Shown here piece by piece: positions 1 to 64,000 of a stretch of DNA of 64,000 bases. The stretch's first letter is position 1, and every line of letters starts with the position of its first letter. The DNA is taken from positions 139,259,172 through 139,323,171 of the forward strand of contig NC_058337.1 in NCBI RefSeq assembly GCF_905475395.1, written 5' to 3'. The notes below the pieces were generated by a model that saw only the letters and a list, made by a program, of their open reading frames with translations, made no database searches and had not been told where the DNA came from. Origin of the DNA: Chrysoperla carnea. Taxonomy: Eukaryota; Arthropoda; Insecta; Neuroptera; Chrysopidae. A program made the position numbers and the translations under genes.

Positions 1-1
1 T

Positions 2-34064: not shown

Positions 34065-34745
34065 TACCTCCAAAGGGACTATCAATATCTTGCTGGGCTT
34101 TTCTTTCAGCTTCTTTTCTTTCTTCTTCATTAAGATATTCGCCACGTGCTAATCTCTTTTGTTCTTCTGTTAAAGAATTAGGATCATTAATCATTTGATC
34201 CAAAAGCTTATTATCTTCTTTTAAACGATCCAATGATTCTTTTTTAATTTTCTCATACTCGGTCCAATTCTTCTCTATCCTAGCTTCCCTTTCTATATGC
34301 TCTTGATGTTCTCGGATGACTTCAGGACTTTGACCCTCCATATTCAAGCCTTTTTCAGAAGCTTCTGAATATATGATCTGCTCGGCGTTTTCTTCTTTTT
34401 TAGAAATGGAAGATTGGAGGTTTTTGATTTGGTCTAATAATTCTGGATTATTAGTGCTGGACGCAAGACCCGCAGCGGCACTAGCTAAACGTGCGAGTTC
34501 GGCAGGATTGTTAGTGGCTGTAACTTGGGCTCTAATGGCATTGAGATCATTTTTTACTTGAGCATCGTCTTTTTTATTTTGAGCCTGGTTATCATCTGGT
34601 TTACTCAAGTCATTATCTTTGACCTGTGTATCGTCTTTTTTATTTTGAATTTGATTATAGTCTGACTTACTCAAATTATCATTTTTTGCCTGAATATCAT
34701 CTTTTCATCTGGTACATCTTTCTTATTATCCTCATCATCTGCCAT
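34065..34745 (-). pseudogene. rickettsial hypothetical protein, frameshifted and cut by Polinton B
   Basis: Starts MADDEDNKKDVPDE at 34745. A short A in the next run (GATGAAAAGATG) shifts frame; the rest is open from near 34674 to the Polinton junction. It contains two or three copies of a degenerate repeat (LSKSDYNQIQNKKDDTQVKD, LSKPDDNQAQNKKDDAQVKN) and a charged coiled-coil C-terminal half rich in E, K and R. The end of the gene is lost at 34064, after DSPFGG. No function recognised. Confidence 0.7.
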
Positions 34746-34893
34746 TGTCTTGCCTTAAAATAATGCTATGTCTAAAATATTTAACTGATATTAGCAATTA
34801 AAACTTAACAAGTTAACAAAGTTAACAATTAAAAAGCTTTTTCAACTATTTTACTAGAGTAATTTTAAATATCATTGTAAAAATACAACGTTT

Positions 34894-35376
34894 TTACTCT
34901 TTTCCTGAAAGATCAACCCACTCATTATCTATTTCTTGGTTATAATCTTGTAATTCTACTTGACAAAATGGATTAGGATTTTCATCAATACCAAATATTT
35001 TATCTTCATAAAACTTCTTTTTCAGATGATTAGCTAATTTAGGGAAAAAATTATCATCACTCCACTCTTCTCATTATTTTTTAGGAAGCTGCTTATAATA
35101 TTTCTCGATTTCCGTAACATCACCCAGCTTACCTATAGAAAGAGCATTTAATAATTATTTTTTATATGCCTCTTTAGCTTTCCCTATAACCAAAACAGAA
35201 CCAACCATTAATAATACTACCATTCCAGGTCCAAGAACCAAAAATAATCCTATAGTTCCAGCATTCATTCCAAATGTGCAAACCTCTATTAACGCATCTT
35301 TGGTTATAATATAGTTCTTATAAGCTTTTTTAAGTTCTTCAATAACAGGGCTATAATCGGTATTTTGATTTTGCAT
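34894..35376 (-). pseudogene. rickettsial hypothetical membrane protein with three in-frame stops
   Basis: Starts MQNQNTDYSPVIEELKKAYK and has a hydrophobic segment (TIGLFLVLGPGMVVLLMVGSV). The frame is stopped by TAA at 35155, then TAA and TGA at 35071-35076, yet it keeps clearly coding text between and after (IGKLGDVTEIEKYYKQLP; NFFPKLANHLKKKFYEDKIF) to a final TAA at 34894. This pattern is typical of a decaying gene, not of an intergenic region. Family unknown. Confidence 0.75.
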
Positions 35377-35623
35377 AAATATGAACCTCTAAAAAAATGT
35401 TTATTAGACTCGGCTTCAGTTTCCCGGTCATTGCGAGAGGGCATTGCCCGCGTGGATTGTTTCCCCCTGTCACCCCATGATTTATTCACGGGGTCCAGTT
35501 AAAAATACTAATAAAATTAGTATTTTTATTATTTTTTCTGGATTACCACGCTCATTTCATTCGCTCGCAATGACGATTCCCGATCCACGCCGCAACAATG
35601 CCGCCACGGGGCAACATATTACT
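35377..35623. repeat. rickettsial palindromic intergenic repeat
   Basis: Contains GTCATTGCGAGAGGGCATTG-like text, CACGGGGTCCAG, a short stem (AAAAATACTAATAAAATTAG with TATTTTTATTA) and TCATTCGCTCGCAATGACG. The same kind of sequence is at 37319-37441, 41640-41929 and 63019-63190 and resembles the palindromic elements scattered through Rickettsia genomes. Confidence 0.7.
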
Positions 35624-37309
35624 CTACTCCACCACCTCCCCTATTTGCTCTATTGGCTCTAAGCCGTACAATGATATCATACGTTCAAGTACTCTTCCGG
35701 CAGTAGGGGCAGCAGTCCAACCAGCTGTTGCAAAGCCAAACGTTTCTTTAGTAGGTTTTGGCTCATCAATCATAATATAGATGACATATTCAGGCTTTGA
35801 GGCTGGCAGTAATCCCAAAAATGAAGTAGTACGGCTATTTTTAAGATATTTCTTTTTACCAGCATTACTTGATAATTTTTCAGCAGTACCGGTTTTTCCA
35901 CCAATCAAATATCCTTTCACTTCTGCCCTTTTACCTGTTCCATCTTTTACCACAGTTCTAAATAGCTGTCTCATTTGCTTTGAAGTATTTTCGCTAAATA
36001 CTCTTGTCCCATCAACTTTTTCATCATCTCTTTTTAAAAAAGTAAGATCGTATAAAATACCACCATTTACAACAGGTAGCATTGCCCTAACAAAATGTAA
36101 AGGACTAATTGAAATACCATAACCATAAGACATAGTAGCACTAGTTAATTCATTCAATCTTTTTTCTGAAGGGAAAAGAGGAGTACCTCGCTCCGGCAAT
36201 TCTATTTGCACTTGATCTAGCAAACCTAATTTCTTAAAATATTTTCTGAAATTATTTTTACCTACTTCAAGCATAATCTGACTTACGCCGATGTTTGAAG
36301 AATGTAGAAAAATATCCGGTACACTATGCCACCCTTGTCTTGGGGTATAATCCTTAATCTGAAAACCACCGACTTACATATAGCTTATATCATAAGCATC
36401 ATTCATATTTATTGCACCAGTATCGAAACCGACCGCCATAGTCAAAGACTTAAACACCGAACCTATTTCATAAATTCCAAGGCTTGCCATATTAAAAAGC
36501 TGTTGAGGCTTTGCAGCACTTGGATAATGAGGATTAAAATCCGGTTTACTAACTAAAGCTAGAATCTCACCATTATTAGGATTCGCAATAATACCCACCG
36601 CTCCTATAGCACTAAATTGCTTTAAAGTCTTGTCGATTTCTTCGCTCAAAATACTTTGCAACCTAATATCAATTGATAATTTAAGCGGCTCTATCTGCTT
36701 TCCTGGCTTATTTAAATCAAGATCGGAATTAGTTAAATATTTATCATAAGCAAGTTCGAGTCCGCTAAGCCCCGCCATATCCCTACCAACATAACCCAAG
36801 ATATGAGATGATAAGTTAGAAAATGTGTAAATACGCTTTTGTTCTTCTTCAAAATCAAAACCAAGCAACCCAAGACTCATTATTCTTTCTTGCTGACTAG
36901 GCAATAAATCCCTTTTAACCCATATAAAACTTTTATTGGATTTAAGATCAGCAAGTAGCTTAGCCTTGTTGATATCGGGCAGAATCTCAGCTATTTTTTT
37001 TACGGAATTTTGGGGATCAATTACTATTTGCGGATTGGCAAATAATGACGCAGATGGCAAATTTACAGCAAGCAAATTATCGTTACGGTCGACTATTTCT
37101 TTTCTAAACTGGCTATTCTTTTTTAGAGCGTGGAGGTTTTTATCATAAACATTAGTAGCAACTATTATAAGCCTGTAAGATAAGGTACAAAAAAGAATAG
37201 AAAAAGCACCAATAACTATCAATAATCGGATTTTTGTATTTTTACTACAAACATTCCAAAATATTAAACTCTTAATATCAGGTTTCCACTTTTCTAAAAT
37301 CTGTTTCAT
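35624..37309 (-). pseudogene. ftsI: penicillin-binding protein / FtsI, one internal stop
   Basis: A septal peptidoglycan transpeptidase. The likely start is MKQILEKWKPDIKSL at 37309 rather than the in-frame codons from 37435, because those lie in a palindromic repeat. An N-terminal membrane anchor (LIVIGAFSILFCTLSYRLII) is followed by the dimerisation domain, then the transpeptidase: the serine motif lies in YEIGSVFKSLTMAV (SVFK), the second motif in SSNIGVS (SSN) and the third in IGGKTGTAEK (KTGT). Between them TAA at 36374-36376 replaces a codon after DAYDISYM; the frame continues as VGGFQIKDYTPRQGW. So one substitution has disabled an otherwise complete gene. It lies downstream of ftsL in the usual division-cluster order. 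Confidence 0.9.
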
Positions 37310-37318
37310 ATTAATTTG

Positions 37319-37441
37319 TTTTGTTTCAAGCACCTCGTCATCCCGTGGTTTATCCACGGGATCCAGAAAAGTAATTGACGAAGCAATCTTATGAAAATGT
37401 CCTAAGATTGCCACGCTCACTTCGTTCACTCGCAATGACGC
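37319..37441. repeat. rickettsial palindromic repeat between ftsL and ftsI
   Basis: Contains CACCTCGTCATCCCGTGG, TTTATCCACGGGATCCAG and TTCGTTCACTCGCAATGACG, forming an inverted pair around CCGTGG/CCACGG. It is in frame with ftsI, so it can be mistaken for an N-terminal extension. Confidence 0.75.
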
Positions 37442-37837
37442 TTAAGGCTTCTCTCGACTTGAAACTGTCTGTATATATTTATTATTTGTAATTCTTTTAT
37501 GTCTCCGATTATTATTACTTTTAAAAATATTAATATCTTGATCAAATCTAATATTTGAGGCAGTAATCGGTGATAATGGATCTCTTACCATTTGACAAGG
37601 TTTCACCGTTTGTAATTCTAAATAAGCAGTTGCAAGATTTTTTAACCTTGCTGGCGAGATGAGATAAGCTTTTTCTGCTTTCAAAATATGAATATTATTA
37701 TTTTGGCTATTTATTTGTTTTAAAACACTACTCAATTGGTAATCAAGGGTTGAAACTCGTTCCTTAATGGTAAATAAGCTGCAAACCGCTACAATTATCA
37801 CTGGCAATACTAAATAATGAAATTTCTTAATACTCAT
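37442..37837 (-). CDS. ftsL: cell division protein FtsL-like
   Basis: 131 residues with one N-terminal transmembrane segment (FHYLVLPVIIVAVCSLFTI) followed by a short coiled coil (RVSTLDYQLSSVLKQINSQN), the architecture of FtsL, which bridges FtsB/FtsQ with FtsW/FtsI at the septum. Position between rsmH (2 bases away) and ftsI supports the name; sequence conservation in this family is weak. The reading frame is intact. In a nuclear copy it would have no function. Confidence 0.8.
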   Translation of the reverse strand: MSIKKFHYLVLPVIIVAVCSLFTIKERVSTLDYQLSSVLKQINSQNNNIHILKAEKAYLISPARLKNLATAYLELQTVKPCQMVRDPLSPITASNIRFDQDINIFKSNNNRRHKRITNNKYIQTVSSREKP

Positions 37838-37839
37838 AA

Positions 37840-38757
37840 TTATATTTTTTTTGCTGCTCTTAGCTTTGCTGATCTTACCCTTACATTTAAAGATATCTCT
37901 TTATCTGATGGTATTTCCGCTTTATTAGTAATAATCTTAAGCCATTTATCTGGGTTCAATATAATATCTTCTTTAGCGTATTTTGACCTTGCTACTGGCT
38001 TTTCTGAATTTTCTTTGAAAAAATTCTTAACTATTCTGTCTTCTAATGAATGAAACGAAACAACAACTAAACGACCATCTTTTTTTAGTATATTTTTTAC
38101 ATTCGCTAAGAACTGCTCAAGCTCTCCAAGTTCGTTATTTATATAAATCCTGATGGCTTGAAAAGTCTTAGTTGCAGGGTCAATTTTACCATTTCTAAAA
38201 CCTATGCAGCTACGCACTATATCAGCTAACTTTCCAGTACTGTCAATCCTTGCGGCTTTTTTTACTTCTACAATTTTCTTAGCAATCCTTCGGGAAAAAG
38301 TCTCATCACCATATTTATAAATTTCATCCGCAAGCTCTTTTTCTTCTGCGGTATGTATAAACTCTTCAGCACTAAGCCCCTGCCCGCTCATACGCATATC
38401 TAAAGGTCCGTCATGTAAAAACGAAAATCCACGATCTGGTATATCAAGTTGCATAGAAGAAACGCCTAAATCAAGCACTATGCCGTCAATTTTTTTTGAT
38501 TCGAGCTTTGCAAAACAATTACCAAAATTTGTTTCTACAAAATCAAATCTATCTTTATAATTATGTTTTATCTCTTCGGCTTTCTTAATGACATTTGGAT
38601 CACGATCCATAGCTGTGACATAACAATCACAGTTTTCTAATAACGCTTTACTATAACCACCTGCCCCAAACGTACAATCTAAGTAGGATTCACCGGCTTT
38701 TGGTGCTAAAAACTTCAGCATCTTGTTTAACATTACGGGTATATGAGGCTGTTGCAT
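37840..38757 (-). CDS. rsmH: 16S rRNA m4C1402 methyltransferase RsmH (MraW)
   Basis: 305 residues from the ATG at 38757 ([14 protein letters not shown]); the TTG one codon earlier is not needed. It has the SAM-binding [40 protein letters not shown] and [17 protein letters not shown] signatures, at the usual length. It methylates C1402 of 16S rRNA in bacteria. Fully open, and the best-preserved rickettsial gene of this block. It follows mraZ and precedes ftsL, the standard order. Confidence 0.95.
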
Positions 38758-39208
38758 CAATTCGTATCCCTAAAGTTAAACGTTTCTCGTGGGCAAGCTT
38801 TTGAGCAGAAGCTAAATAATCCTTGAAATTTTGCGGTTGCCAAATTTCAAAAATTACTCCTTTACCTACAAAACATACTTGATCCTCAATCCCCGCATGC
38901 TGCATTAAAGATGCGGGCAATATCACTCTGCCCTCCCCATCAAATGAAAGCTGTACAGCTTCACCAAATATTATAGTCTCAAAAGCATCACGCTCTTCAG
39001 AATGCGGATCAAGCGACTCAATCATCTCTCTTAGTTTCTCAATATGGGATATACCGCAAGCTTTTATACAATTATTTCTAATCGATGGATAAGCAATTAT
39101 CCCATTAAATGCTTCTTTCCCTAATACCGCTCGGTAATTTGCCGGTACTGATACCCTACCCTTTTTATCAATATTATTATTGATAAATTTCGATAAAAAT
39201 ATATTCAT
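38690..39208 (-). pseudogene. mraZ: transcriptional regulator MraZ, C-terminal frameshift
   Basis: Two SpoVT/AbrB-like halves can be seen: [19 protein letters not shown] and [20 protein letters not shown]. After KRLTL (near 38772) the frame continues through [14 protein letters not shown] into rsmH, overlapping it by 68 bases, which is unusual. In the next frame a TGA overlaps the rsmH ATG (TGATG), the normal tight coupling. I infer a one-base loss. MraZ controls the division cluster in bacteria. Confidence 0.85.
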
Positions 39209-39583
39209 TGGTATTATTTGGGTTATTTTGGGATTTAATGGTAAATTACAGGATATTATAGGAATTAAACGTAGTCAAGGGATTTTTAGTGTATAGAATT
39301 TAAATTAATTGACTTGAAATATAAAATGAAGTAGATTAAATTAGTTTAAAAATTAAGGATTTTTAAACTAAAAGTTGATGATATTATTAATGAAAAAACA
39401 GGTTCTTTGGAACTATCTAAAACAGATAAAGAGAATAAAAAACGCAAACCTGGATATTGTGAAAGAAAGGTTGTTATAAAAGAAGATTTTATGGATTTTT
39501 TGAATAAATGCTGTTGGTAAATAAATTCTGTGATAAAGGTAAAAATTGCCTCTTACCTTTATCACTTATTTTTAATACTAAAC
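39209..39583. other. rickettsial intergenic region with a 50-codon gene remnant on the plus strand
   Basis: From 39368 to 39520 (plus) an open stretch reads LKVDDIINEKTGSLELSKTD, then a KKRKPGY segment and KEDFMDFLNKCCW, without a start codon. It looks like the end of a lost gene. The rest, including the mraZ upstream region, is AT-rich without an obvious feature. Confidence 0.4.
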
Positions 39584-40895
39584 TTAAGCGATATTAAAAT
39601 TATTAACCTGTTTTTCTAATTTTTCAAAATGGCGTAATCCTAGATAATAGAATATTGTTACAGGTACCATAATCATTAATATTCCTATATATCCAAAAAT
39701 TTCTGTTAAATAAGCAAGTCCAAATGACGTAAAGATATACATAAGTGCACGTGATATAGCAAATATAAAGCTAGTATGCGTGAAGCGTTTAAATACCGGA
39801 AAATGTTTATAAAAAATAGCCGTAGCTGGAAAATAACCAGGAGCAAATATAAGAAAATATACTTGTATTAACATTATATAAGAGGGTGTCAAATTCTGCA
39901 TTATCACAGGTGAAAAGCAAAAAAATACTATAAGAATGTAAAATGTTGCTCTTAATATTTTCAAAGGATAAATTTTATAACTTAAATATACTAATAATAT
40001 AGTACCGGTAAGTTCTATCATGGAAATAAAAAAATTATGATGAATAACTTCAGCAGGACTATATCCAAAATTTTCTGTTAGGATATTTCCACAATAAAAA
40101 TATCCAAAATAAGACCATACGGGCCATGTACATTGTATTGCAAAATAAGAAATGAAAGTTTTAAAGTTTGTTTTTTGTTTTAAAATATCATTATTATCGA
40201 TTTGTTTTGGGTCTAAACCGGGATTTTCTAGACTAGATTTTATTCTTCGCTTTGCATCAATAAAGTCAGGAGTTTCTTTAAGCGTTGTACGTGCCATAGT
40301 ACCGGTAATAGCTACCAACGCACCAAATACAAAAGCATAACGCCAATTTAAATTTCCGGAAGTTACGATAGTAGATACTCCAAGTGCTGCTAAAGTTCCA
40401 AGTGTAGAAAAAATTGTGACTGACGCTACAGCAGGATATTGCATAGGAGGTTTTACCATTTCCGTAATATAAAGTTGAGCACCAACTACCTCAGTAGAGG
40501 AGGAAATACCTTGAATAGCTCTAAAAAGTGTAACCATTATTGTAGCAGCAAAACCTATTTCATCATAAGAAGGAAGAATAGCCATACCAATACAGGTGCA
40601 AGCCATCATTATAGCCGTAATTATAATTACCGGTTTACGCCCTATATCCCCTATCCAGCCAAATAGTAATGCCCCAAAAAGTCTAAATACAAATGTTGAA
40701 CAATACGCAAAAGCAGAAAGTACTTTTTATTGAATAAGGATTATCAGGAGAGAAAAATATTTTATTAAGTAATAAAGCCATATGAACATATAACATCAAA
40801 TCAAAATATTCTAAAAAATTTCCTATGGATAATAAACTTATAGCCTGTTTTTGTTTTCTACTTAAACTTGTCTGCTCTTTTTGATATCCTAACAT
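39584..40895 (-). pseudogene. ProP-like major facilitator transporter, frameshifted
   Basis: Starts MLGYQKEQTSLSRKQKQAIS with a first membrane helix (SIGNFLEYFDLMLYVHMALL). Near 40728 the run of A in CAATAAAAAGTAC has lost one or gained two bases; frame one then stops, while the shifted frame continues with FRLFGALLFGWIGDIGRKP, the MFS loop 2-3 signature, and about 10 more helices to NNFNIA at 39584. Rickettsia carry several ProP-type osmolyte/proton symporters. Without the lesion it would be about 435 residues, normal for the family. Confidence 0.88.
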
Positions 40896-40970
40896 AATTC
40901 CTTTATAAAAAAATAAACTGCAAAAAAGAGTTATATTTTTTTATATGTAAGTCAACAAAAAAGTAAAGAA

Positions 40971-41633
40971 TTAGTAAGAAATATTTACAAAATTTAAAGC
41001 TTCTTTAACTAATGGAATAGTTATTTTTCTCTTAGAAGTTAACGCAAAGTTATTGATATACTCTAATATTTCTAAAATTTTATTATATTCTCTAGGCAAA
41101 TTTACTAATAGAAAATTTATTACTATTTGTGATATTGTTACAGAAGACGTAGCAAAATGTTTAAATATTAAAATTTTAATTAATTCATCATCAGGAGGAT
41201 AAAGCAGAACGTTTAATACAGAATTAATACGTGATGATAGATCAGGTAAGGTAAAATTTTTACCTTTATTATTAGATGTAAGTAAAAGATATTTTTGCTT
41301 TTCATTAATAAGATTAAATAGATGCAGCAACGCTGTTTCCTGCCAATTTTCTATATCCTCAATAATGAAAGCATTATGATTTGCTAAAATCTTATCATCA
41401 AAAAAAATATCTTTAATTACATAAGCATTGCTTAAATTTTGCCATATTTTGGTTAGATAAGTTTTGCCTGAAGACACAGGACCTTTTATTAGTAAAGTGA
41501 ATTTATAAGGATTAACGCCAAAGCTATTCTGCCAATTTTGCAAAGCATTATAAGCGTAAGCGTTAGAATCAGAAACAATAAATTCCTCAGGATGATATTT
41601 TGAAGACTTATTAAAAGGAAATATATATTGCAT
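40971..41633 (-). CDS. hda: DnaA-homologue Hda-like AAA+ protein
   Basis: 220 residues. It has a Walker A motif (GPVSSGKTYLTK, about residue 51), Walker B (FIIEDIENW) and a sensor-like LLLTSNN followed by DLSSRINS, but no DnaA DNA-binding domain IV, which is the Hda/HdaA architecture. Hda with the sliding clamp stimulates ATP hydrolysis by DnaA in bacteria. Open and of usual length. It lies between thrS and the transporter gene in the same orientation. Confidence 0.85.
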   Translation of the reverse strand: MQYIFPFNKSSKYHPEEFIVSDSNAYAYNALQNWQNSFGVNPYKFTLLIKGPVSSGKTYLTKIWQNLSNAYVIKDIFFDDKILANHNAFIIEDIENWQETALLHLFNLINEKQKYLLLTSNNKGKNFTLPDLSSRINSVLNVLLYPPDDELIKILIFKHFATSSVTISQIVINFLLVNLPREYNKILEILEYINNFALTSKRKITIPLVKEALNFVNISY

Positions 41634-41639
41634 TTATAA

Positions 41640-41929
41640 AATTTTTTAACGTCATTGCGAACGAGCAAAGGCATTGTTGCGTGGATCGATTCCTCTCTGT
41701 CATCCCGTGATTTATGAACTAGAGCCAGTTAAAAATATCAATATTATTGATATTTTTAGTTTGTTTTCTGGATCTAGTTCCCAAGCCACGGTATGACACC
41801 TCGGGTGTTTGTCAATCCACGCGTGCAATACCACGAGCAAAGCGAGTGCGGCAATCTCATTTTATTATCCTGAGATTACTTCGTCAAAACTTACAGTTTT
41901 TCCTCGCAATGACGATATATCCAACATTT
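41640..41929. repeat. rickettsial palindromic repeats between hda and thrS
   Basis: Begins AACGTCATTGCGAACGAGC, contains CATCCCGTGATTTATGAAC, a hairpin around AATATTATTGATATTTTTAG, and ends CTCGCAATGACGATAT. Two repeat units appear to be joined. Confidence 0.7.
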
Positions 41930-43724
41930 CTAAATATACTTACTATTCTCTTCCTTAACGAGTGCTATCAACTGCTCAATCGATAATACTTCCTGCTCGG
42001 TAGTTCCGAGTCTTCGAATCGTTACTTGTTTATTTTCTTTCTCTTGTTTTCCGATTATTGCAATCATCGGTACTTTTTGGTTAGAAAACTCACGAATTTT
42101 ATAGTTAACTTTATCCGGTGATATATTAATATCGACTCGCACGCCACTCTCAATTAAAGCTTTCCGCACTTCTAAAGCATAATCGTTTAAATCACTTGTA
42201 ATAGTAGCTATTGCAACCTGTACAGGAGCAAGCCACAAAGGAAAACGCCCTGCATATTCTTCAATTAATATCCCAATAAAACGTTCAAGCGAGCCAAGTA
42301 TTGCTCTATGTAACATCACAGGTCTTTTTTTCTCACCGCTTGCTGCAACATAGCTAGCATCTAAACGCTCAGGCAGAACAAAATCCATTTGCAGAGTTCC
42401 ACATTGCCATTGACGCCCTATTGCATCGGTTAACACAAATTCAAGCTTAGGACCATAAAAAGCATTCTCGGCCGGGTTTAGTGTATAGCTATAACCGGCT
42501 TTCTCTACTGCCTCTTTTAGAGCATTCTCAGCCTTATCCCAAGTCTTATCGCTACCAGTTCTAACCTCCGGTCGATCAGAGAATTTTACTTTTATATCAG
42601 TAAAACCGAAATCCTTATAAACCTCGGTTAGTAACTTACAAAAGCTCACTGTTTCATCGGTAATTTGATCTTCGTTACAAAATATATGTGCATCATCTTG
42701 CACTAAACTTCGCACTCTCATTAACCCGTGTAAAGCACCTGACGCCTCATTACGATGGCACAAGCCAAACTCAGACATACGTAGCGGCAAATCTCGATAG
42801 CTCTTAATACCCTGCTTTAAAATCTGTACGTGACAAGGACAGTTCATCGGCTTTAAAGCAAGCGTCTTGTCGTCTGTTTCTAAAGCAAACATATCATCAC
42901 GGAACCTTTCCCAATGCCCCGAAAGCTCCCAAAGACTCTTATCAACTAAAACAGGGGTCTTAACCTCAATATAACCATTTTTGCGAATCTTTCTTCTAAT
43001 ATATTGCTCAATAGTATTATATACACTCCAACCCTTATCATGCCAAAATACCATTCCTTGAGATTCTTCCTGAAAATGGAATAAATCAAGCTCTTTTCCT
43101 AATTTTCTATGGTCACGCTTTTCAGCTTCTTCAAGCATGAATAAATAACTATCTAGCTGCTCTTTAGTAGCCCAAGCTGTACCATATATACGCTGTAATA
43201 CCTCATTTCGGCTACCACCACGCCAATAAGCTCCCGCAACTTTCATCAGTTTGAAATGTTTAACAAAGCCGGTAGATGGAGCGTGTGGACCTCGGCATAA
43301 ATCAATAATGTTACCTTGCCTGTATAAACTAATAGACTCATTTGACGGGATGCATCTTAGCTTCTATAACCGCAAAATCATCAGTAGTAAAAGGTTTATC
43401 CCTAGCGAAATCATAGTAATAACCATTTTCGATAGCAGGACCGATTGTTACTTGCGTTTCAGGAAATAATTCTTTTACCGCTTCCGCTGTTAAATGTGCA
43501 GCATCATGCCTTATAACTTCAAGACATTCAGGTTCTTTAACAGTCAAAATACGCAATTTACAATCACTATCAATTTGAGTACTTAAATCTTTAAGATCAC
43601 CATTAATCTCAGCAATCATTGCTGCTTTAGCAAGCGATGTTGAAATAGACTCAGCTATCTCAAATGCGGTAATATTCTTTTCAAACTGTTTTACACTCCC
43701 ATCAGGGAAAGAAATATTTATCAT
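41930..43724 (-). pseudogene. thrS: threonyl-tRNA synthetase with an internal deletion
   Basis: The N-terminal TGS and editing-domain part ([19 protein letters not shown] ... [18 protein letters not shown], with HDAAHLTA from the zinc/editing site) is followed at AKMH by a jump and frame change to [20 protein letters not shown]. From conserved ThrRS structure roughly 35-40 codons are missing. The catalytic part contains FHEKGW-like FWHDKGW, MNCPCHV (zinc cysteine), [15 protein letters not shown] (motif 2) and the anticodon-binding C-terminus. Cannot make a working enzyme. It lies next to purC as in a rickettsial order. Confidence 0.92.
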
Positions 43725-43737
43725 TTTTTATTCTAAC

Positions 43738-44110
43738 TTATTTTTCTTTTAAACGATCAGCTATTAATTTATATGATTCATAAGCTTTAGCTGGGTCTTT
43801 TTCTAGCAATTCAAATCCTGGTCTTTCATTACTATTAATATGCCATAATTTACAAGTATCAGGGCTAATTTCATCAGTTAACATTACCAAAGATTCCTCA
43901 CCGGTAAATACCCGTCCAAATTCAAGGCTGCATTCAACAAGCCTAATACCGATGTCGATAAATAAACCGCTTAGGAAATCATATATACGCAAAGCTTGCT
44001 TCTTAACTGTATTGATTTCATCTTTAGTTAACCAACCAAAATTTAATATTTGATACTCATTAACTATCGGATATTTAAACTCTCGACTTTTTACTTTAAA
44101 GTCAATTATT
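43738..44110 (-). pseudogene. purC: purC, 3' part (interrupted by a LINE)
   Basis: The C-terminal half of SAICAR synthase. It reads from AATAATTGAC (44110-44101) through DFKVKSREFKYPIVNEYQ and FLSGLFIDIGIRLVECSLEF to ADE-like TDEISPDTCKLW and the stop at 43738. The missing front half is 18.5 kb away at 62643-63001 on the same strand. The AATAATT at the junction (44104-44110) is also at the end of the front half (62643-62649), the expected target duplication. SAICAR synthase joins aspartate to CAIR in purine synthesis. Confidence 0.93.
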
Positions 44111-52460: not shown

Positions 52461-52502
52461 TTATGAAAATGCAATGTAACTAAGACTAAAATTTCAATAC
52501 AA

Positions 52503-54093: not shown

Positions 54094-54456
54094 GTTTTGA
54101 CCTGTTTAGAAACAGACCTGTTTAGAAAGAGACCTGTTTAGATACAGACCTGTTTAGAAAGAGACCTGTTTAGAAACAGACCTGTTTAGAAAGAGACCTG
54201 TCCAGAAACAGACCTGTTTAGAAAGAGACCTGTTTAGAAAGAGACCTGTTTAGATACAGACCTGTTTAGAAAGAGACCTGTTTAGAAACAGACCTGTTTA
54301 GAAAGAGACCTGTTTAGAAAGAGACCTGTTTAGAAACAGACCTGTTTAGAAAGAGACCTGTTTAGAAAGAGACCTGTTTAGAAACAGACCTGTTTAGAAA
54401 GAGACCTGTTTAGATACAGACCTGTTTAGATACAGACCTGTTTAGAAAGAGACCTG
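54094..54456 (-). repeat. 16-bp minisatellite in Polinton C
   Basis: About 22 units of CCTGTTTAGAAAGAGA with variants AAACAGA and ATACAGA; the shorter, inverted counterpart of 25988-26710. Confidence 0.94.
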
Positions 54457-54535
54457 TATATTTATTGAAGGATAGCACCAACGAAGATATAAAGGGTTCA
54501 TATATTGACAAAAAAGTCTTATTTTATAGTGGACC
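54457..54535 (+). pseudogene. short integrase relic
   Basis: ATATTTATTGAAGGATAGCACCAACG and ATATAAAGGG are joined directly to TTCATATATTGAC and the end of the gene. About 150 internal bases present in the other copies are deleted. Its left border is the same integrase site as in B. Confidence 0.8.
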
Positions 54536-54843
54536 GTTTTTATGAACATACTTGTAACAATAAAAAATTTGTCATAGTGGACCGTTTTTGCGAACATATT
54601 TGTGTTTTATAAAAAAAAAAAAAATAAAAATTATCACATTGTAAAAATATTATTTTTATTGTAAAATTTTATCTATAACATATAAAAACAGAGTTGTATT
54701 ACAATAATATTTAAAAAATATATATTTATAAATTATCGAAAATACATTATAATTATTATTCTGAAAAGTATAAAAACAGAGTTGTATTATAATAATATTT
54801 AAAAAATATATATTTATAAATTATCGAAAATACATTATAATTA
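54536..54843. other. AT-rich spacer with a duplicated 3' tract
   Basis: A tract of about 90 bases starting GTATAAAAACAGAGTTGTAT is present twice (about 54678-54768 and 54768-54858), overlapping the end of the next gene. The A-run and AATAAAAATT could serve as polyadenylation signals. No gene. Confidence 0.55.
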
Positions 54844-55284
54844 TTATTCTGAAAAGTGTCCATTGTCATCATCATCATCATCATCATCATTATCTTTCTT
54901 CATAAGATAATTTTCAATTATTTCTTTCACTTGAACATAGTCGGATAACTCGTCTGATGTAAATACACTGTAGTAAGATTGTTCAAAAATGGATAGTCCT
55001 ACAATTCCATCTTTTTGTCCAGAGTGGATATTTTTTAAAATCCAGTTCCAAATTTGTTTGTCTTCATCGTCTGATGATGGGGAAAATTTCACTTCTAAGT
55101 CCATTTGTTCTACCTTATCAATAAGGTAGTTTAAAGTTTCCGGTCGACCACATTTAATTGCCATATTAACCAATGTTTTAAAATACTTTGTTAACACATT
55201 GTTTAAAGTACTTAAACTACAATTATCTTTAATCATATTAACAATACAGTTGTTATCACTATTATGATTACTAAAGTCTTGCAT
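54844..55284 (-). CDS. acidic-tail small protein of Polinton C
   Basis: 146 codons, nearly identical to 13418-13858, with S for G at residue 5 (MQDFSNHNSD) and K for T in SGQKDG. Eight aspartates in the tail. Same orientation and spacing to the polymerase as in A and B. Confidence 0.75.
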   Translation of the reverse strand: MQDFSNHNSDNNCIVNMIKDNCSLSTLNNVLTKYFKTLVNMAIKCGRPETLNYLIDKVEQMDLEVKFSPSSDDEDKQIWNWILKNIHSGQKDGIVGLSIFEQSYYSVFTSDELSDYVQVKEIIENYLMKKDNDDDDDDDDNGHFSE

Positions 55285-55523
55285 TTTGTATGTTTAAACT
55301 AACACTAAATTGTTTTCTACAATAATTCTACCTAACTATCAGTTTTTTTTTACACCCCCACCACTACTCTATCAATTGTTCATGCGCACTACTCTATCAA
55401 TTGTTTGTACACCTATCACAATACCGAACCACTTTGAGGATCATCACAACAGCAGGATACATTTCTGAAACAACAGCAAAAATTAGCTAAATATTAAAAA
55501 CAAAAAATATAAAATACTTACAC

Positions 55524-58500
55524 TCAACAAATAATGCTATAGTGGCCCCATGGTTTTGTTTCACATGAATTGTGAGTAATGTATCGTTTTTGGTCAAATG
55601 GTGATAAGCCCACTTTCTGCTGTTTGATGGTATGTAAGCGGTGTCGCTTGGATTGGATGCTTTGCTGAACATGGTAAAAGTTACGGTTCTCAAGCAAACA
55701 CCGCTTATAGTCCTCAAAAGTAAGTTTTCGGATAGCTGACTTCTTGAGACCCTTGGATCGTTTAGTCTCTTTTTTATTTTGCACCCGAATAGCATACATT
55801 TTGCTACGTAATCCGACAAATTCTAGCATAACATCACCATTATTTTCATCGGACATTAAACCCTTGACTTTCTTATTACGTAGTGGCATACCATAGATGT
55901 TGTCGGGTGCATAGTCAGCCGTATCAAAACGATTAATATCCTGTTTCATGACCTCATAGACGTCAGTATTTTTCACGCTATAAATTAGACTATCGGTGTC
56001 TGTGTATAATAACCTGACATTTGTGGGGTTGTACCGTTGGTACATGTAGTTGTAGTGGAAGTCATACACAAACGTTTTCGATATGTCTAAAATTGTGAAG
56101 CCTATGTAGATGGGTTTGTTGAAACGTATCTGTGATTTTTTCATTTCAACAATACTGACGTCATTGTCGAGCACCATCATACTGTGAAAATTGGGATTGG
56201 CAATTAATTTCTTCACACCATGTTTTCCATCCCAATTTTTTCGTATGTACACAACCCGATGTTTCCTCACATTCTCCATGGTTTTACCGAAGATGGCATT
56301 AATCATGAGTTTGAATAATGCTTTTTCAAACTCATTTGAGGCGTTCTTGCGCATCTCGGTATTGAAATCAATATATGGTTTCAACCATGCAGATTGATCG
56401 AATTGTAACACACGGTGGTATTTTGTTACCTTAACACCGAGTTGTGTATACAGTTTTAAATTCCTGTAGTGCACGACATAGTTGGTCTTATTGTAAAGGG
56501 TTGACAGAAGATATTTTTGTTTTGATCCAGGTGGTTTCGTTGTCTCCGGACATGGCGGTAAATCGCTAAAGTTATCATGTAGATGTTGGGGTATTTCAAG
56601 GTCTACTTCTAAAATGTACCCGACTGGTGAATCATCTGCAACATCATCGATGTTTGGTGTGTCGACCCACTTAAAATTTCCTGTTGGTAGGTATCCACAC
56701 ATTGCTGCACCATATAGGTTCACCACATCATAATACATAAGGTAGACATCTTCTTGAGTTTTATCATACCCCTCTTCCATGTACTTATTGTTTGCCTTAG
56801 CATAGCGATTAGAACATTGACTTACACCGCCTCTGATTCCTTTCTCGATAAACAACAAGTCATCAATATCCGTGAACAATTCCAATTTGATATTGGTGTA
56901 TTTCAACATGGCGCTCCACGTATAGCCAGGAAGTGTGTAATAGTGACTAGGATCGAGACTATAGCTATGAATACAAGTGTTACGGAAATTTTCAAAAATA
57001 TCCGCAAGTAGTAACACATCAGTTTTCATATACAGGTCTGAATAATCACCTAGTGTATGTAAATTGAATGTGTTCCATACCTGTATCGCATGGTTATAAT
57101 CCTCATCCGTTATGTGTTCATCTGTTAACACACTGTAGAACGCCTCCTTTGGTGGTAATTTTGTCTCTTGGAGACGTCCCCAGCTACTCATGTATTCATA
57201 TGGAAATACACCTTTTCTCGTTAGCAATTGAAATTGTTCATCATTACTGACCTATAAAAAATTAAAAAACAAATTACAACCCTGTATTAAAAATTAATTA
57301 TATTTTATCATTTACCTCTTTATGTAAAATGGATTTTTTATCATTATCTAAATATGAGGCCAGATTTTCCAACTTGTCTGCGAGAAATCGGAAGGAATCA
57401 ATGAATCTTAATTGAATGTCCGAGACGTGCTTTGTGAAACTGATGTACTTTTCTTTGTTGATGGGCAACACATCAACTTGACCGTCGATTTCCGTCAGCA
57501 GAGCTTCAATAATAAAATGCGAATCGTATCCACTTAAGTTGTGCATCACAACAGGTACCACCCTTGAATCTTGATAATGCAGATTACAAAATTGGTGTGC
57601 TGCTCCACGGTAGATACCTAAAATAGATTAATATAAAATTAGATGAAATTAAAAAATAATAAATAACCTGCATTACCTGTGCGATGTGAATGGTCGCGAA
57701 CACGTATGGAATTGGATACGAAATCTTTACCACAAATGTGACACTTCTCTGCTGACATAAAATCCAGTTCTTGTTCGACGGTGAGCGGATACATTGGTTT
57801 AACGTGTTTTATTTTTTGCTCTAATGAGTACGCTACTTGTTCCAGTTCATGAACAAACCACTTGACACAATCAGCACCACGGTATGCCTTATAAAACGAT
57901 TGGTTGGGATCATGGGTACAATGAACATAGTAACCTACACTGTAGGGTACATGTTTTTGAATATTTTGCGTATAAGACCCATGATCCATTTCCATGTCTT
58001 CATGATGTTGTGGTACCAATAGTGCCTCAAAGTCAGCGTACACCATATACTCAACACGTTCCTTGCTGTTGAAATCTTTGAACTCAACGAACCGCTCGTC
58101 ATCAGTTTCAGGCATTCGTACCCGCACCGCTTCTTTTTCACCACAATTTACTGGATGCTGTTGGAGTTTGACTTCTGTAGCAAAATAGTTGAGACATCGA
58201 TCACATAAATAAATTTTATGCCTATCACTCTTTACACTCGATCGACTCAACTTTGCTAAATTTTTTATCCAGCAAAAGTGGTGACTGTTCCCATTCTCCA
58301 CAGCCAATAGATGAATTTTCTTCCCCGCAGTGTTCGAACTAACGCGTACAGGGAAAATTTCTAAATCACGTAGAAACGTATCTTTGTAGCCGTACACATT
58401 AATCGATAGCTGCGGGTTCATCTTTTCAAATTTATTAATTTGATCCAGAGACATGGGGAACTTTAATCCATCACATTTTAAATGATGTTTATAGTGCGGG

Positions 58501-59413
58501 TACTTAGTTAAACGTTGAGGATTCCTTTCAACCGGGTAAAGTGCTGACATTATCGACCATAGAAAACAATGTTGGTCTTTATTCTGGACATTAACCACAG
58601 CCAATTTATTTTTGATGAGTGGTGGTAGTTCACAAAAAGTCCCAGCTGTGATCGGAGAGTACTTATTCATGTGGACTCGAATATTTATGATCATGTCAAG
58701 AGCCCAACCGCTATCGCGTTCCTGGAATTCTTCCAATTTTTTCAGCAAATAGTTTTTGACATGATCATTGTACCACTCCTGCATGTCCGTTGTCAGATAC
58801 ATTTCCTTGGCCGACGTTATAAAAGTTTTCAAATCCTCCTCTTTGGTGATGGGCTTAATAAAATTGCCCGTGAACATAATATACACCTGAAAAAAAAATT
58901 CAAGATCTCATTAGACTATTTAAATTATAAATCTTAAATTTTACTTACCTTGAGGGGATGCTTCACTAGCTCACGCCGAACGTGTCTTCTAAACATTGGA
59001 AATGCCCGGTTGAAAAATATATTTGGATCTTTATAATCCAAATTTGTAATCATACCAGTCTTCACCCTGCCCTGATGGTGGGTTTCAATTGTCTCCCAGA
59101 TTAGATGTCGATTTTGTTTTTTGGTGACTCCACCACCTTGCTTAACTAAATCTAATCGCAGTCGGTGAAGTTGCCGCTGGTATGATTTACAAAGTCCAAT
59201 ATTAGCTTCAAGACGCAGAGGATTTTCTTTCTTTAACATCAACATCTTTTTGAATAAGCGGATGTTCTGCTTATTAAGTATCATCCATCGCTCAGCTTCC
59301 TCCACCGTCTTGATGAGCCTCAACGCTCTCTCCACTTTCTTCATCATATCAGTGCTACCACCTTGAGGTACCACGTTTAGCGTCTGCATAACATTTCGTT
59401 CGTAGGTGTCCAT
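55524..59413 (-). CDS. protein-primed DNA polymerase B of Polinton C, complete
   Basis: Exons 59413-58949, 58886-57677, 57617-57316 and 57251-55524 with the same splice sites and phases as the A gene; about 1,234 residues, no stop. Motifs match those given at 14100-17990. It differs from A in a cluster in exon 2 just before the C2H2-like finger ([15 protein letters not shown] against [15 protein letters not shown]) and lacks three codons of an LQ repeat (KLQQHPVNC). The first intron is 62 nt. An intact replicative gene in a disabled element suggests recent insertion. Confidence 0.93.
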
Positions 59414-59617
59414 CTTTCAAAAAATTATATTTAAGTTTCACAATAATATTTAAAAAATTTTACACTTACCGTTATATTTTCAAATACTAAGCAAAATATA
59501 CGTTACCGAACGTTCAACACTAAAGTTAACTTACAACTGAGTAATATTTGTTTTTTGTATAAAATATATAGACTAAGTTTAGAATAATAAATATATCAAA
59601 AACAAAATAATAATAAT

Positions 59618-59668
<51 letters not shown>
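59414..59668 (-). promoter_or_regulatory. polymerase 5' flank with an uninterrupted AAT microsatellite (empty retrotransposon site)
   Basis: Matches 17991-18213 joined to 22577-22616. The AAT run from about 59610 to 59667 is unbroken. TATA-like tracts at about 59558-59570. Confidence 0.7.
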
Positions 59669-59669
<1 letters not shown>

Positions 59670-60290
59670 TAACGTAAAAAATATATGCGAAAAAACTAAC
59701 TGAAGCAAAGGTGAATTTCAAAAGAGATACTTCAACAGCTACGTACATCACTTTTTATAGCATTACCCCCACCACTAAAAAAGTTGTAATTTGATATTTT
59801 TATAATCGTAATTCAAACTAATTATTTTTTCTTGGAATTCAGACAAGTTTAAACATGTTCAAACAAGTTTGAACATGTTCAAACAAGTTTGAACTTGTAG
59901 CAGGATGATGATATCATATTTTTCAAGGTCAAATTAACATATTCTTGAGAATAGCTGACACGTGTAAAATTATTTTAAGATCAAAGTCCATTCAAACAAG
60001 TTTGAACATGTATTTTTATTATGTAAATTTCAAGTGTCATATTACATTGCTAATTCAATAAAAAAAAAATATTAACATCCGGTCACGTGTTTTGACACAT
60101 GTAAAATTATTTCAAACAAGTTTGAACTTGTTACAAGATGATGATATCATATTTTTCAAGGTCAAATTAACATATTCTTGAAAATTGCTGACACGTGTGA
60201 AATTATTTTAAGATCAAAGTCCATTCAAACAAGTTTGAACATGTATTTTTATTATGTAAATTTCAAGTGTCATATTACATTGCTAATTCA

Positions 60291-60324
<34 letters not shown>

Positions 60325-60541
60325 AACATCCGGTCACGTGTTTTGACACATGTAAAATTATTTCAAACAAGTTTGAACTTGTTACAAGATGATGATATCA
60401 TATTTTTCAAGGTCAAATTAACATATTCTTGAAAATTGCTGACACGTGTGAAATTATTTTAAGATCAAAGTCCATTCAAACAAGTTTGAACATGTATTTT
60501 TATTATGTAAATTTCAAGTGTCATATTACATTGCTGACTCA

Positions 60542-60596
<55 letters not shown>

Positions 60597-60690
60597 AACA
60601 TCCGGTCACGTATCTTGAATTTTATCATGTATAAAGTGTCAAATTACAATATTTTTCAAGGTCAAATTAACATATTCTTGAAAATTGCTA
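59669..60690. repeat. right subterminal satellite of Polinton C with long A runs
   Basis: Four to five units in inverse orientation to the left side. Two of them carry A runs of about 28 and about 50 bases (from about 60293 and about 60545) at the same unit position, after GCTRAYTCAATA. No gene. Confidence 0.9.
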
Positions 60691-61234
60691 ACTAATGTCA
60701 ACGTCCCGCCCCCCGTTCACTCTCCACCACTATTGGTCAAAGCCAATGACGTCATCAATGCTTAGGCAGCCATTCCTCACCCCACCACACCTCCCAACGC
60801 CATCTTGATTTTTACAGCGCTACTATTGGTCAAAGCCAATGACGTCATCAATGCTTAGGCAGCCATTATTCCCCAACACCACACCTCCCAACGCCATCTT
60901 GATTTACTATTGGTCAATGCCGAGGTTTCCAACATTCACCTAGGTTTGCCCTTTTTGGAAAAGTGTACTATCCAACTGGGCCAAAACGTACATGATGTCA
61001 ACGTCCCGCCCCCCGTTCACTCCCCACCACTATTGGTCAAGCCCCGTTTATGTCATTCCTCACCCCCACCACACCTCCCAACGCCACCTTGATTACTATT
61101 GGTCAATGACGTCATCTATCCCCTCCAACTTCCGAGGTTTCCAACATTCACCTAGGTTTGCCCTTTTTTGAAAAGTGTACCATCCGGGGTTACTTGAGGT
61201 CAAACTGTGCTGAAAGTGGGCTGACTCTTCTACT
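60691..61234. repeat. right terminal inverted repeat of Polinton C
   Basis: Blocks with ATTGG, CCAAT and TGACGTCA (60747-60754 and repeats near 60840 and 61107) and CCATCTTG, an internal repetition of the start (GATGTCAACGTCCCGCC at about 60995), then ACTTGAGGTCAAACTG and the terminus at 61234. Confidence 0.9.
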
Positions 61235-61240
61235 TATAAC
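61235..61240. repeat. target site duplication TATAAC (right of Polinton C)
   Basis: Identical to 46459-46464; it belongs to the LINE codons for SY in KTSYK. Confidence 0.95.
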
Positions 61241-62530
61241 TCGTTTTATTTTTTACTTTTTTGATTATTGACCATAAACTATTCAAATCTTTTTCATCTA
61301 TAATTTTTTTTAGATCGTTGACTTCATGATCTCTTTCTTCTTTTTTCTTTTTCTCACACATACTTATATACTGTTTTTTAAGATCACAATAGTTGATTCG
61401 GTGAATATCAGATTGAGTTCTTCTAAATGTACTCAATGCTTTTCTAGCTAGCTGTTTTGATTGACTGCATTCTATATCAAACCACTTGTTCTTTATTACA
61501 CGTCTACCCACATGATTCTCTTTTACCTGCATTGATTCTCCAGCCCATTTAAAAATTCGATCGATTAATTTACCAGCAATATCAATTTCCCCTTTCTTTA
61601 GACTGTTTCCAACGCCAATTAGCCACAGACTCATTTCCTTGCTATTAATTCTATTTTTAAATTCTTCACTTTTAAACTCGTTCCACTTATATATTTCAAG
61701 GAGTTTGTAGTTTTCATAGGGCTGGTTGACTGTATCATCTATGGCTATCTGAATTGCAACTGCAAAATGTTTTGTATTTTCAACATTATCGGTCACTATC
61801 ATATCAAGTATTCCCTGTTCGTAAAGCTGGGTTTTGATTATTACCAAATCTATTACACTTTTTCCATTGTGCGAAATGTAAGTGTATTCACCCTCGTTAT
61901 TCCCCATGCACCGCCCATTTAAAATAACCATATCAAGTTCTGTACACAGTTCTATAATACGCCTTCTGAATTCGTTAGTTTCTTTGTCTTTATTTCTTCT
62001 ATTATTGATTCTTATATTTAAATTATTCGATATATTATTGTATTTAGTATCCGTTTCAATATCAAATTCTTGAACTTCTCCTACTCTTCCATTTAAGTCT
62101 CCAACAATTATAAGTTCTGCATCCACGTATTTATATTCCATATCCACAATTTCTTTTTTTAAACAATTAAAAAATTCTGAATTCGAGTACTTTGAATACT
62201 TTGGGGGGTTATATATCGCGCATATAAGAAATTTTTTACTTTTAATTTATCGTATAAACCAAACGCACTCTTTTAAATTATTTTTTAAACATTTTATACT
62301 TCCTTTCAATTTCTCTCTATTATACACTACAATCCCTCCAGATTTTCTTCCAATTTCTCCAACTTTATTCGGGTCTCTCACAAAAAAGTCATATCCATTA
62401 ATATTAACTACAGCATCAGCTTCACACCATGTTTCAAGAAGTATAATTATCTTATACTTTGAGATAAATTCTACTATTTGTTTATTATGTTTTATTCTGT
62501 TCATCCCTTCTATATTCGTAAGTATTAATT
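61235..62530 (-). pseudogene. LINE apurinic endonuclease domain, one stop
   Basis: Starts around LTNIEGMNRIKHNKQIVEF. APE motifs: IILLETWCEAD (catalytic Glu), LIIVGDLNGRVGE (GDxN), GKSVIDLVIIKTQL and VENTKHFAV (His). A stop at 62247 after CVWFIR interrupts it; text resumes as KFLICAIYNPPKYSKYSN. It ends in the linker VKNKTSYK, which continues at 46458 in frame. The domain nicks DNA for target-primed reverse transcription. Confidence 0.88.
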
Positions 62531-62642
62531 CGTTATCATTTTTCCGGGTTAAAGCTAAGTCCGTCTTCGTATTTATAATTGCTCCATTAGATAAAGCATT
62601 AAATGGAGTTTTTTCTACAGAATCCTTGCTTAAGAAATGTCA

Positions 62643-63001
62643 AATTATTGGCTTATCAAATACAAAGCCTTCATCCATACCAAATTCTTTTACAAACCTA
62701 CCACACGCAACAGAAGATACAACTACTTGCAGAGGAAACATCTCAACATATTGAATTAACTGCTCTCTCATATTTAGCTTTTCAATAAAATGATTTTCAA
62801 TGCCAATCATTTCAAGCTTATTCATTACAAAAGAAAGAAACAAAAGAAAGAGATATTATTATTAAGCACTCCTTTGCCTGATACATCAATAATTTCACCA
62901 TTTTCTAAAGTAGCTCTATCAGAAAAAGCCATTACAAGCAAAAACTCTTCTTCAGAAGTATATAGGGTTTTACTTGAACCTTCATATAGTTTTTTTTTCA
63001 T
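62643..63001 (-). pseudogene. purC: purC, 5' part with a 14-bp insertion
   Basis: Starts MKKKLYEGSSKTLYTSEEEF at 63001, with DVSGKGVLNNNIS, then a frame change: TTCTTTTGTTTCTT precedes TCTTTTGTAATGAAT, an extra 14 bases resembling a local duplication. The frame then gives MNKLEMIGIENHFIEKLNMR, VVVSSVACGRFVKEFG and DEGFVFDKPII at the LINE junction. The C-terminal half is at 43738-44110. Together the two halves cover the normal length of the rickettsial enzyme. Confidence 0.93.
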
Positions 63002-63018
63002 ATATTATTTTTTTAAAT

Positions 63019-63190
63019 TTATTTAGCGTCATTCCGAGGAAAAACTACAAGTTTTGTACGTGTGCAATATAGTTAAAAAATGCTATAAATTAGCATTTTT
63101 TATTATTTTTCTGGCTCTAGTTCCGAAACCACGTTATGACATTTAAAGACTTCTGAATCCCCGCATATGCTAAGAATGACATTGTGGATA
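63019..63190. repeat. rickettsial palindromic repeat between purC and hisS
   Basis: GCGTCATTCCGAGGAAAAAC, a hairpin of AAAAAATGCTA with TTAGCATTTTTTATT, CTGGCTCTAGTTCCGAAACC and CATATGCTAAGAATGACATTG. Related to the repeats at 35377 and 41640. Confidence 0.65.
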
Positions 63191-63241
63191 TTTTTCGACC
63201 ATGCAACAAAGCCCCTGTGTACAATAATATATAAAAGAAGT

Positions 63242-64000
63242 CTAAGGCTTTTTTAGCGACTCAATTGTTTTCGAAAAGTCCAAAATATATTCTTCTTGCT
63301 TTTCTAAATCTTTGATTTTGAGGTTGTTATTTGCTTGTTCTTCATCACCAATAAAAACAATAAATTTGGCATTTTCATTTAAAGCTCTTTGCATTCTTTT
63401 TGCAATTTTACCGCTTACTTCTATCAACGCAGATATGTTATGTAAGCGTAATTGATCGGCTATTTTTAAAGAATACGAAATATTATTTTCGCCTATTGGC
63501 AATACAAATATTGGAGTTACCGAATCTATATTATATTCCCGCATTAAAGCTATTCGCTCAATTCCTGCTGCAAAACCTATTGCTGGCACTTCATCGTTAT
63601 TGCCCATAATGCGACTAAGCCCATCATAACGCCCGCCGGCAAGAATAGTGGATTGGCTTCCTAGCTTTGTAGTCGTGAATTCAAAAGCAGTATGGCAGTA
63701 ATAATCAAGTCCTCTAACCAGACGTGTATTTATGGTATATTTCACGCCTAAAATATCAAGATATTTTAATAACTCTTCGAAATATTTTTTTGATTCCTCA
63801 GTATAATACTCCGATAAAACAGGGGCATTTGCTACTATCTTTTGATCAACTTCACTTTTAGAATCAAGAATCCGCATCGGGTTTTTAGTTAGCCTTATTT
63901 TGCTATCTTCTGATAATTCATCCTTAAAGTCATTTAGATATTCTACTAATTTTTGCTGATAAGTAGCACGTGACTGACTGCAACCAAGAAAGTTTAGCTC
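63242..64000 (-). CDS. hisS: histidyl-tRNA synthetase, C-terminal part (continues past window edge)
   Basis: Open from the window edge ([20 protein letters not shown]) to the stop at 63242. It has the HisRS signatures [13 protein letters not shown] and [26 protein letters not shown] (motif 3) and the anticodon-binding domain ([10 protein letters not shown] ... [14 protein letters not shown]). No lesion visible in about 252 codons. It charges tRNA-His in bacteria. It is the only visible evidence that rickettsial DNA continues to the right of the window. Confidence 0.93.

Follow-up and report, generated by a model that had tools for sequence, protein, structure and literature searches.

The 64,000-nucleotide stretch analysed here (the window; positions 139,259,172-139,323,171 of scaffold C1 of the Chrysoperla carnea assembly) contains a block of rickettsial genes that is split by an insect LINE (long interspersed nuclear element), and the LINE is itself split by a Polinton (Maverick). 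From this nesting, and from comparison with a bacterial relative of the donor, we consider it very probable that C1 acquired DNA from a bellii-group Rickettsia in the C. carnea lineage, at a site that now lies ∼0.57 Mb from the end of the scaffold. The tract is best understood as nuclear DNA in decay rather than contamination. C1 is a scaffold of 139,979,878 bp in an assembly of 337 contigs; the C. carnea genome note, in the part available to us (PMC10116181), gives 337 scaffolds with a longest one of 139,979,878 bp, and names PacBio HiFi, Hifiasm and Hi-C. On this chromosome-scale scaffold, bacterial DNA and host DNA run on without a gap at the junctions. The window has a single gap (200 N at 5,539-5,738), the part from 34 to 64 kb is gap-free, and the same N run, which lies outside the rickettsial block, is the only one in the 254 kb of C1, window included, that we inspected.

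A LINE and a Polinton nested in rickettsial DNA

The first part of the block holds ftsI, ftsL, rsmH, mraZ, a proP-like gene, hda, thrS and the 3' part of purC, and all of these, together with hisS, lie on the minus strand, in agreement with the single orientation given in the initial annotation (Table 1). The names of the proP-like gene, purC and the partial hisS come from matches under the curated NCBIfam cut-off. The nearest relative was Rickettsia sp. MEAM1 of Bemisia tabaci (NZ_CP016305.1), with 96.0% DNA identity from mraZ to ftsI, as found in one scan of genome contigs from which records very near the window's own genome may be left out. Over the same genes the symbiont of Diachasma alloeum was 94.5% identical and five other Rickettsia were 79-80% identical. 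MEAM1 has the same order as the tract over 64 kb, and differs in having other genes and an insertion sequence (IS) beside the proP-like gene. A plasmid collection searched in near mode with 34,066-44,110 gave no match, no relatives of rsmH were found in viral contigs, and the window yielded no hit when scanned for Rfam families and tRNAs.

Homology to MEAM1 breaks at 44,110 and restarts at 62,639 on the identical donor base. At the left flank GTCAATTATT is followed by the ATT-repeat tail of the LINE, the right flank starts with GTCAAATTATTGGC, and the corresponding MEAM1 sequence is GTCAATTATTGGC. On this alignment MEAM1 is the empty site and the window is the filled LINE site, with a target-site duplication of 10/11 bp whose two sides differ by one base. 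The element has a reverse transcriptase (RT; RVT_1 match, 3.8e-16), an endonuclease (a weak match in 61230-62147, under the cut-off), a 3' tail and a target-site duplication of variable length, as is expected of a LINE. Four other host copies of its 3' part, on scaffolds C1, C3 and C6, are 98.6-99.6% identical to it. Where these four copies have ∼86 bp of other sequence, the window has 195 bp (44568-44762); this is a replacement and not a clean insertion, and sequence like that of 44567-44700 recurs at many sites elsewhere in the genome.

Polintons as a family have a 6-bp target-site duplication and terminal inverted repeats starting with AG, and the one inside the LINE (Polinton B) shows both traits. 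TATAAC stands at 46,459-46,464 and again at 61,235-61,240, and both termini of the element carry AGTAGAAGAGTCA, in opposite orientation; this 13-mer occurs four times in the window compared to 0.03 occurrences expected. When the LINE flanks of Polinton B are joined, one open frame runs across the junction. The scanned open reading frames (ORFs) of Polinton B matched neither DNA polymerase B nor rve integrase; related Polinton copies in the window have an rve integrase (2289-3212) and a DNA_pol_B_2 domain (23825-24319), and the Polinton polymerase ORF had no relatives in viral contigs. As far as tested, the LINE, the Polinton and the BEL/Pao element described below are ordinary members of their families, whose termini, duplication lengths and domains fit. 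The four junctions that had been placed at 44104, 46464, 61235 and 62643 in the initial annotation are real, with their positions now refined to 44,110/44,111, 46,464/46,465, 61,234/61,235 and 62,638/62,639. Large minisatellite arrays (16, 21 and 53 bp) lie within Polintons of the window at 25988-28280 and 53021-54457, and similar arrays occur again at C1 139,330,388-139,331,336, between rickettsial segments.

Table 1. Coordinates of the main features in window numbering, which is continued for features beyond position 64,000
Feature	Position	Strand	Remarks
Another Polinton, visible part	23634..34064		terminus 16 bp from the rickettsial block
Rickettsial block, first part	34081..44110	-	collinear with MEAM1 37.7-47.5 kb; blastn 88-97%; Pfam/NCBIfam
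ftsI with internal in-frame stop	35624..37308	-	stop at codon 315 of the compared frame
rsmH, frame intact	37840..38760	-	profile match and MEAM1 comparison
mraZ, 1-bp deletion relative to MEAM1	38756..39207	-	
thrS, 113-bp deletion and two 1-bp indels relative to MEAM1	41930..43724	-	
purC interrupted by the LINE	43737..63000	-	named through its MEAM1 counterpart
LINE target-site duplication, 3' side	44101..44110		GTCAATTATT
Insect LINE carrying Polinton B	44111..62638	-	RT at 45668-46444; ATT-repeat tail
Polinton/Maverick B with inverted terminal repeats	46465..61234		inserted in the LINE
LINE target-site duplication, 5' side	62639..62649		GTCAAATTATT, longer by one base
Rickettsial block resumed	62639..64000	-	5' part of purC, 3' part of hisS; runs past the window
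Polinton C	90173..102043		outside the window; ATGAGA on both sides; inverted repeats of 617 bp, 97.4% identical; rve integrase
BEL/Pao LTR (long terminal repeat) retrotransposon	129755..138663		outside the window; Pao peptidase domain, LTRs, CTTGC

Because the target-site duplications are nested, MEAM1 has the empty site and the joined LINE flanks are open, the order of events reads as Rickettsia DNA first, then the LINE, then the Polinton. The proposal in the initial annotation that nuclear transfer came first and the eukaryotic elements later agrees with this order (the LINE lies in rickettsial DNA and the Polinton in the LINE), and the pattern is repeated by the BEL/Pao element beyond the window. 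This element has all the features expected of its class: a Pao peptidase, LTRs of 959 bp (0 mismatches, 4 gap positions) and a 5-bp duplication, CTTGC, on both sides. MEAM1 is uninterrupted at its insertion point, which gives a second base-exact empty site; the public bacterial record thus lacks both the LINE and the Pao insertion at their two sites.

Could these elements have entered the chromosome of a living Rickettsia? The insertions do sit in rickettsial sequence, but the three types of element (LINE, Pao and Polinton) are, by general knowledge, eukaryotic and depend on eukaryotic machinery; moreover, the sequence lies on a 140-Mb insect scaffold, and genes on which a dividing Rickettsia should depend are broken in it. 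We give this explanation practically no chance.

We also considered contamination or a misjoin, in which the assembler fused contigs of a resident Rickettsia to host repeats. According to the available parts of the two papers, the whole specimen was extracted (PMC10116181) and the species has been reported as Rickettsia-positive (PMC5557424); in addition, an assembler might be misled by the Polinton repeats, and left of the block there are almost perfect palindromes as well as a scaffold gap. A misjoin, however, does not produce a base-exact empty site together with a target-site duplication, and this combination is seen twice, for the LINE and for the Pao element, while two Polintons also show 6-bp duplications. 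There is no gap in the block, and its genes, including the rickettsial 16S ribosomal RNA (rRNA) gene described below, are damaged. The 1,860-bp stretch from mraZ to ftsL (37,449-39,308) was found once in the whole assembly, without a second copy, and the 16S gene of the tract scored 1191 bits whereas the other matches to small-subunit rRNA models reached at most 357 bits (5 of 2048 candidates scored). A misjoin is extremely improbable on this evidence, and the view already taken in the initial annotation, that the arrangement argues against contamination, is strengthened by the base-exact empty sites with their duplications, the absence of gaps and the gene damage.

Extent and edges of the tract

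To describe the tract beyond the window, we compared the 254 kb of C1 with the whole MEAM1 chromosome and kept the best non-overlapping matches of at least 200 bp. Thirty-two rickettsial segments with a sum of 49.6 kb passed this filter. Twenty-eight of them are collinear and in one orientation, with MEAM1 37.7-102.1 kb corresponding to C1 139,293,252-139,400,158 (107 kb), so the donor order goes on for 77 kb past the window end and the collinear donor run is 64 kb in all. Two further segments (MEAM1 841-844 kb) directly follow this run, one is an inverted piece of MEAM1 12 kb inside it, and the last, from MEAM1 1.167 Mb, is found to the left of the window and is not donor DNA adjoining the block. 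The next 35 kb rightward contained no rickettsial match among those listed. An unfiltered (low-complexity) tblastx map was noise at the left, and from it the high-identity stretches on the right side alone were used.

Four probes were then run against the whole genome: an IS200-like donor element and three of the 69 20-kb stretches of MEAM1 (L080, L090 and L117). Of 67 candidates for the IS200 probe 40 were scored, and all 40 lay on C1 at 138,279,468-139,385,315, with 98-100% identity. For the three MEAM1 stretches, 44 of 44, 68 of 69 and 86 of 86 rows were on C1 within 138.27-139.40 Mb (two of these probes had 47 and 63 candidates, with 40 scored in each), and the lone row elsewhere was 124 bp on scaffold C5 at 75% identity. 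Most of the rows from these three probes are short repeats, and strong matches (≥94%, >700 bp) span ∼4.4, 9.7 and 1.0 kb of the three 20-kb stretches. In all four probes the strong rickettsial matches are confined to C1 138.27-139.41 Mb (∼1.13 Mb). The donor pieces with strong matches stem from well-separated parts of the MEAM1 chromosome, and much donor sequence, as represented by MEAM1, has no strong match in the probes. These matches suggest that the window forms one end of a tract on the megabase scale, with pieces from around the donor chromosome.

Such a tract could be the product of several independent smaller transfers to the same chromosome region and not of one or a few large ones, as might be suggested by jumps in donor position (MEAM1 102 kb is followed by 841 kb after less than 5 kb of C1) and by the varying orientation of the strong probe matches. 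However, the 64-kb donor run is collinear, the strong matches of the four probes all fall in one 1.13-Mb tract, and a donor strain rearranged relative to MEAM1 would explain the jumps equally well. Several transfers are thus unlikely in our view, although a real possibility. We prefer one or a few large events, in which symbiont DNA would have been end-joined to a broken chromosome in the nucleus of a germline cell. The host's LINE and Pao elements entered the rickettsial DNA after the transfer, with a Polinton nested in the LINE, and the tract would have been neutral, gaining length by transposon insertion and eroding by deletion.

The region is dense in Polintons, and a preprint on Curculio weevils puts, in the part available, 93-97% of Rickettsia-derived horizontal gene transfers (HGTs) within Mavericks (PMC13419823). 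Both observations would fit a capture of Rickettsia DNA by Polintons that carried it into the chromosome, as proposed for Curculio. In the lacewing, in contrast, the nesting is reversed, with Polinton B in the LINE and the LINE in rickettsial DNA; Polinton C, which has a separate target-site duplication and is located between rickettsial segments, was by our inference inserted into rickettsial DNA; and the 28 segments in donor order over 107 kb far exceed the length of one Polinton (∼12-15 kb). Capture by Polintons is therefore very improbable for this tract.

Transposases of bacterial type (IS21, IS200, mutator) also interrupt the block. At least 40 IS200-like donor copies, 98-100% alike, are present at C1 138.28-139.39 Mb, all of the scored ones within the tract. 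As the copies are so alike and all 40 scored ones lie in the tract, they probably spread in the bacterium and did not move in the nucleus; the copies would have multiplied in the donor Rickettsia in a recent burst before the transfer, which apparently froze it. The rickettsial part also contains pieces of a group II intron (Rfam; L039:4544-5119) and a match to WsnRNA46, Wolbachia sRNA 46 (Rfam; L045:5500-5651; 67.7 compared to a gathering threshold of 65.3), which may be a rickettsial palindromic repeat.

At the left edge of the block, the initial annotation had a Polinton cutting the rickettsial DNA at 34064. The terminus at 34,064 is real, but just one end of this Polinton is seen in the window, so that a cut into the block is not borne out; its interior is apparently interrupted at 23,634, where another Polinton has its end. 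Rickettsial homology begins at 34,081, and the 16 bp between the Polinton end and the block have no MEAM1 match. These 16 bp are left without an assigned origin because a 204-aa protein that spans them (34,060-34,674) has last residues that are present in none of its seven aligned relatives (nine were found). A duplication partner of 34,064 (flank plus terminus) was sought in the window with no plausible match; two candidates with three mismatches were rejected, one as a chance match at 40,487 and the other as the end of Polinton B.

Further left, parts of Polintons form long, near-perfect palindromes at window positions 1-16415 (5739-11044 versus 16415-11109, 99.8%), one of which abuts the 200-N gap; these palindromes could reflect Polintons inserted into one another in inverted orientation or else a fold-back made during assembly. 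An AAT microsatellite of a Polinton harbours, at 18214-22573, another LINE, different from the one in purC, with an uninterrupted ORF of 1327 aa. Over 51% of its length the protein of this LINE (18,260-22,243) shares 95% identity with a protein of C. carnea.

Decay of the bacterial genes

Bacterial gene function has been lost in the tract, with ftsI, thrS, purC, hisS and the 16S rRNA gene all damaged; hisS is unbroken inside the window and has one frame-breaking indel and two stops beyond it. A living, dividing Rickettsia should need genes that, from their sequences, are broken here. We surveyed the 39 MEAM1 ORFs of at least 150 aa within 37.7-102.1 kb: ten were intact, 25 were not, and four had no match under the filter. 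By hand count, 19 of the 25 non-intact ORFs have a stop or a frame-breaking indel and 6 are incomplete. The 16S gene (C1 139,382,497-139,383,821; L043:9326-10000 and L044:1-650) has ∼165 bp deleted. Four more matches exceeded the bacterial small-subunit rRNA cut-off, with 316-357 bits (C3:14422716-14423833, C3:79961838-79962955, C3:79979594-79980711 and C6:1930508-1931612), and are perhaps nuclear 18S or mitochondria-like pieces.

We then polarised the changes from mraZ to ftsI. The window branch has 22 nonsynonymous or stop changes versus 33 synonymous ones, which differs from the MEAM1 branch (6 versus 38; Fisher p = 0.006) and from the three other branches pooled (p = 0.02); changes common to the window and MEAM1 are 9 versus 36. 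The contrast between window and MEAM1 fits relaxed selection after the transfer. A rough split by hand suggests that ∼0.6% of sites have changed neutrally since then. The insect mutation rate is near 3e-9 per site and generation, and with this rate the transfer would date to about two million generations ago, as an order of magnitude only.

Several observations weigh against a large nuclear tract that decayed after its transfer. The Diachasma strain branch (17 versus 35) shows no difference from the window branch (p = 0.55), so this contrast does not discriminate, and part of the decay may predate the transfer, in the donor bacterium. At least one of the four ORFs scored as absent (MEAM1 43,419-44,123) is present at lower identity. 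As to extent, C1 138.27-139.19 Mb was covered by the probe searches, mostly as short-repeat rows, and where outer host-Rickettsia junctions would be expected there are Polintons at the left and sequence without an assigned origin at the right. Polinton C has rickettsial-like sequence on its left, whereas on its right ∼600 bp without assignment precede an IS200 element, and an empty site for it was not found in MEAM1. Finally, the assembly we searched totals 559,487,470 bp versus the published 560,248,701.

Relation to known systems

'Nearly identical' Rickettsia have been detected by polymerase chain reaction (PCR) of 16S, atpA, coxA and gltA in C. carnea, C. lucasina and C. pallida, and the available part of that survey argues for vertically transmitted symbionts (PMC5557424). 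Because a rickettsial 16S copy is present in the tract, this PCR signal could be partly nuclear: a nuclear copy of 16S, one of the four loci, could be scored as infection and give a false positive. If the signal came from a fixed insert, a prevalence below 100% within some species would not be expected. It is also conceivable, although we regard it as doubtful, that the window is one end of what is left of a near-whole Rickettsia chromosome, which was integrated in one event and is now a sink for host transposons, with the PCR-detected strains of the three species being at least partly this inherited nuclear copy.

A term search of the available text of the C. carnea genome note returned neither Rickettsia, bacteri nor endosymbiont (PMC10116181). 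In the same text the sequenced animal is called male once and female elsewhere, and a reviewer there asks if cobionts were present. We found no report of a Rickettsia insert in a lacewing in the open-licence literature searched, as far as its accessible text goes. The present case points to a megabase-scale Rickettsia-bearing tract in the reference genome of a biocontrol insect. The base-level chronology of bacterial DNA, LINE and Polinton answers, short of reads, the contamination question that is typical of long-read assemblies. It is also a case against taking an association of Polintons with Rickettsia DNA as Polinton-mediated capture.

Host retrotransposons have invaded nuclear Wolbachia inserts. 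Large inserts of this kind are described in insect nuclear genomes, for example on chromosome 4 of Drosophila ananassae (PMC4299567, in the part available), and the tract resembles them in that a large part of the genome of an intracellular member of the Rickettsiales lies within a host chromosome. Unlike in those inserts, as far as the available text describes them, the donor here is Rickettsia in the narrow sense, the host is a lacewing, and the chronology comes from nested target-site duplications. The closest parallel in content is in Curculio, where a 2026 preprint argues that Mavericks encapsulate transferred bacterial sequences (PMC13419823, in the part available); Rickettsia DNA, Mavericks/Polintons and pseudogenisation are common to both cases. 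While in Curculio the genes are reported to lie inside Mavericks, on every chromosome, and are taken as ancient, in C. carnea there is one rickettsial tract, largely collinear with the donor, and the Polintons are within it or next to it.

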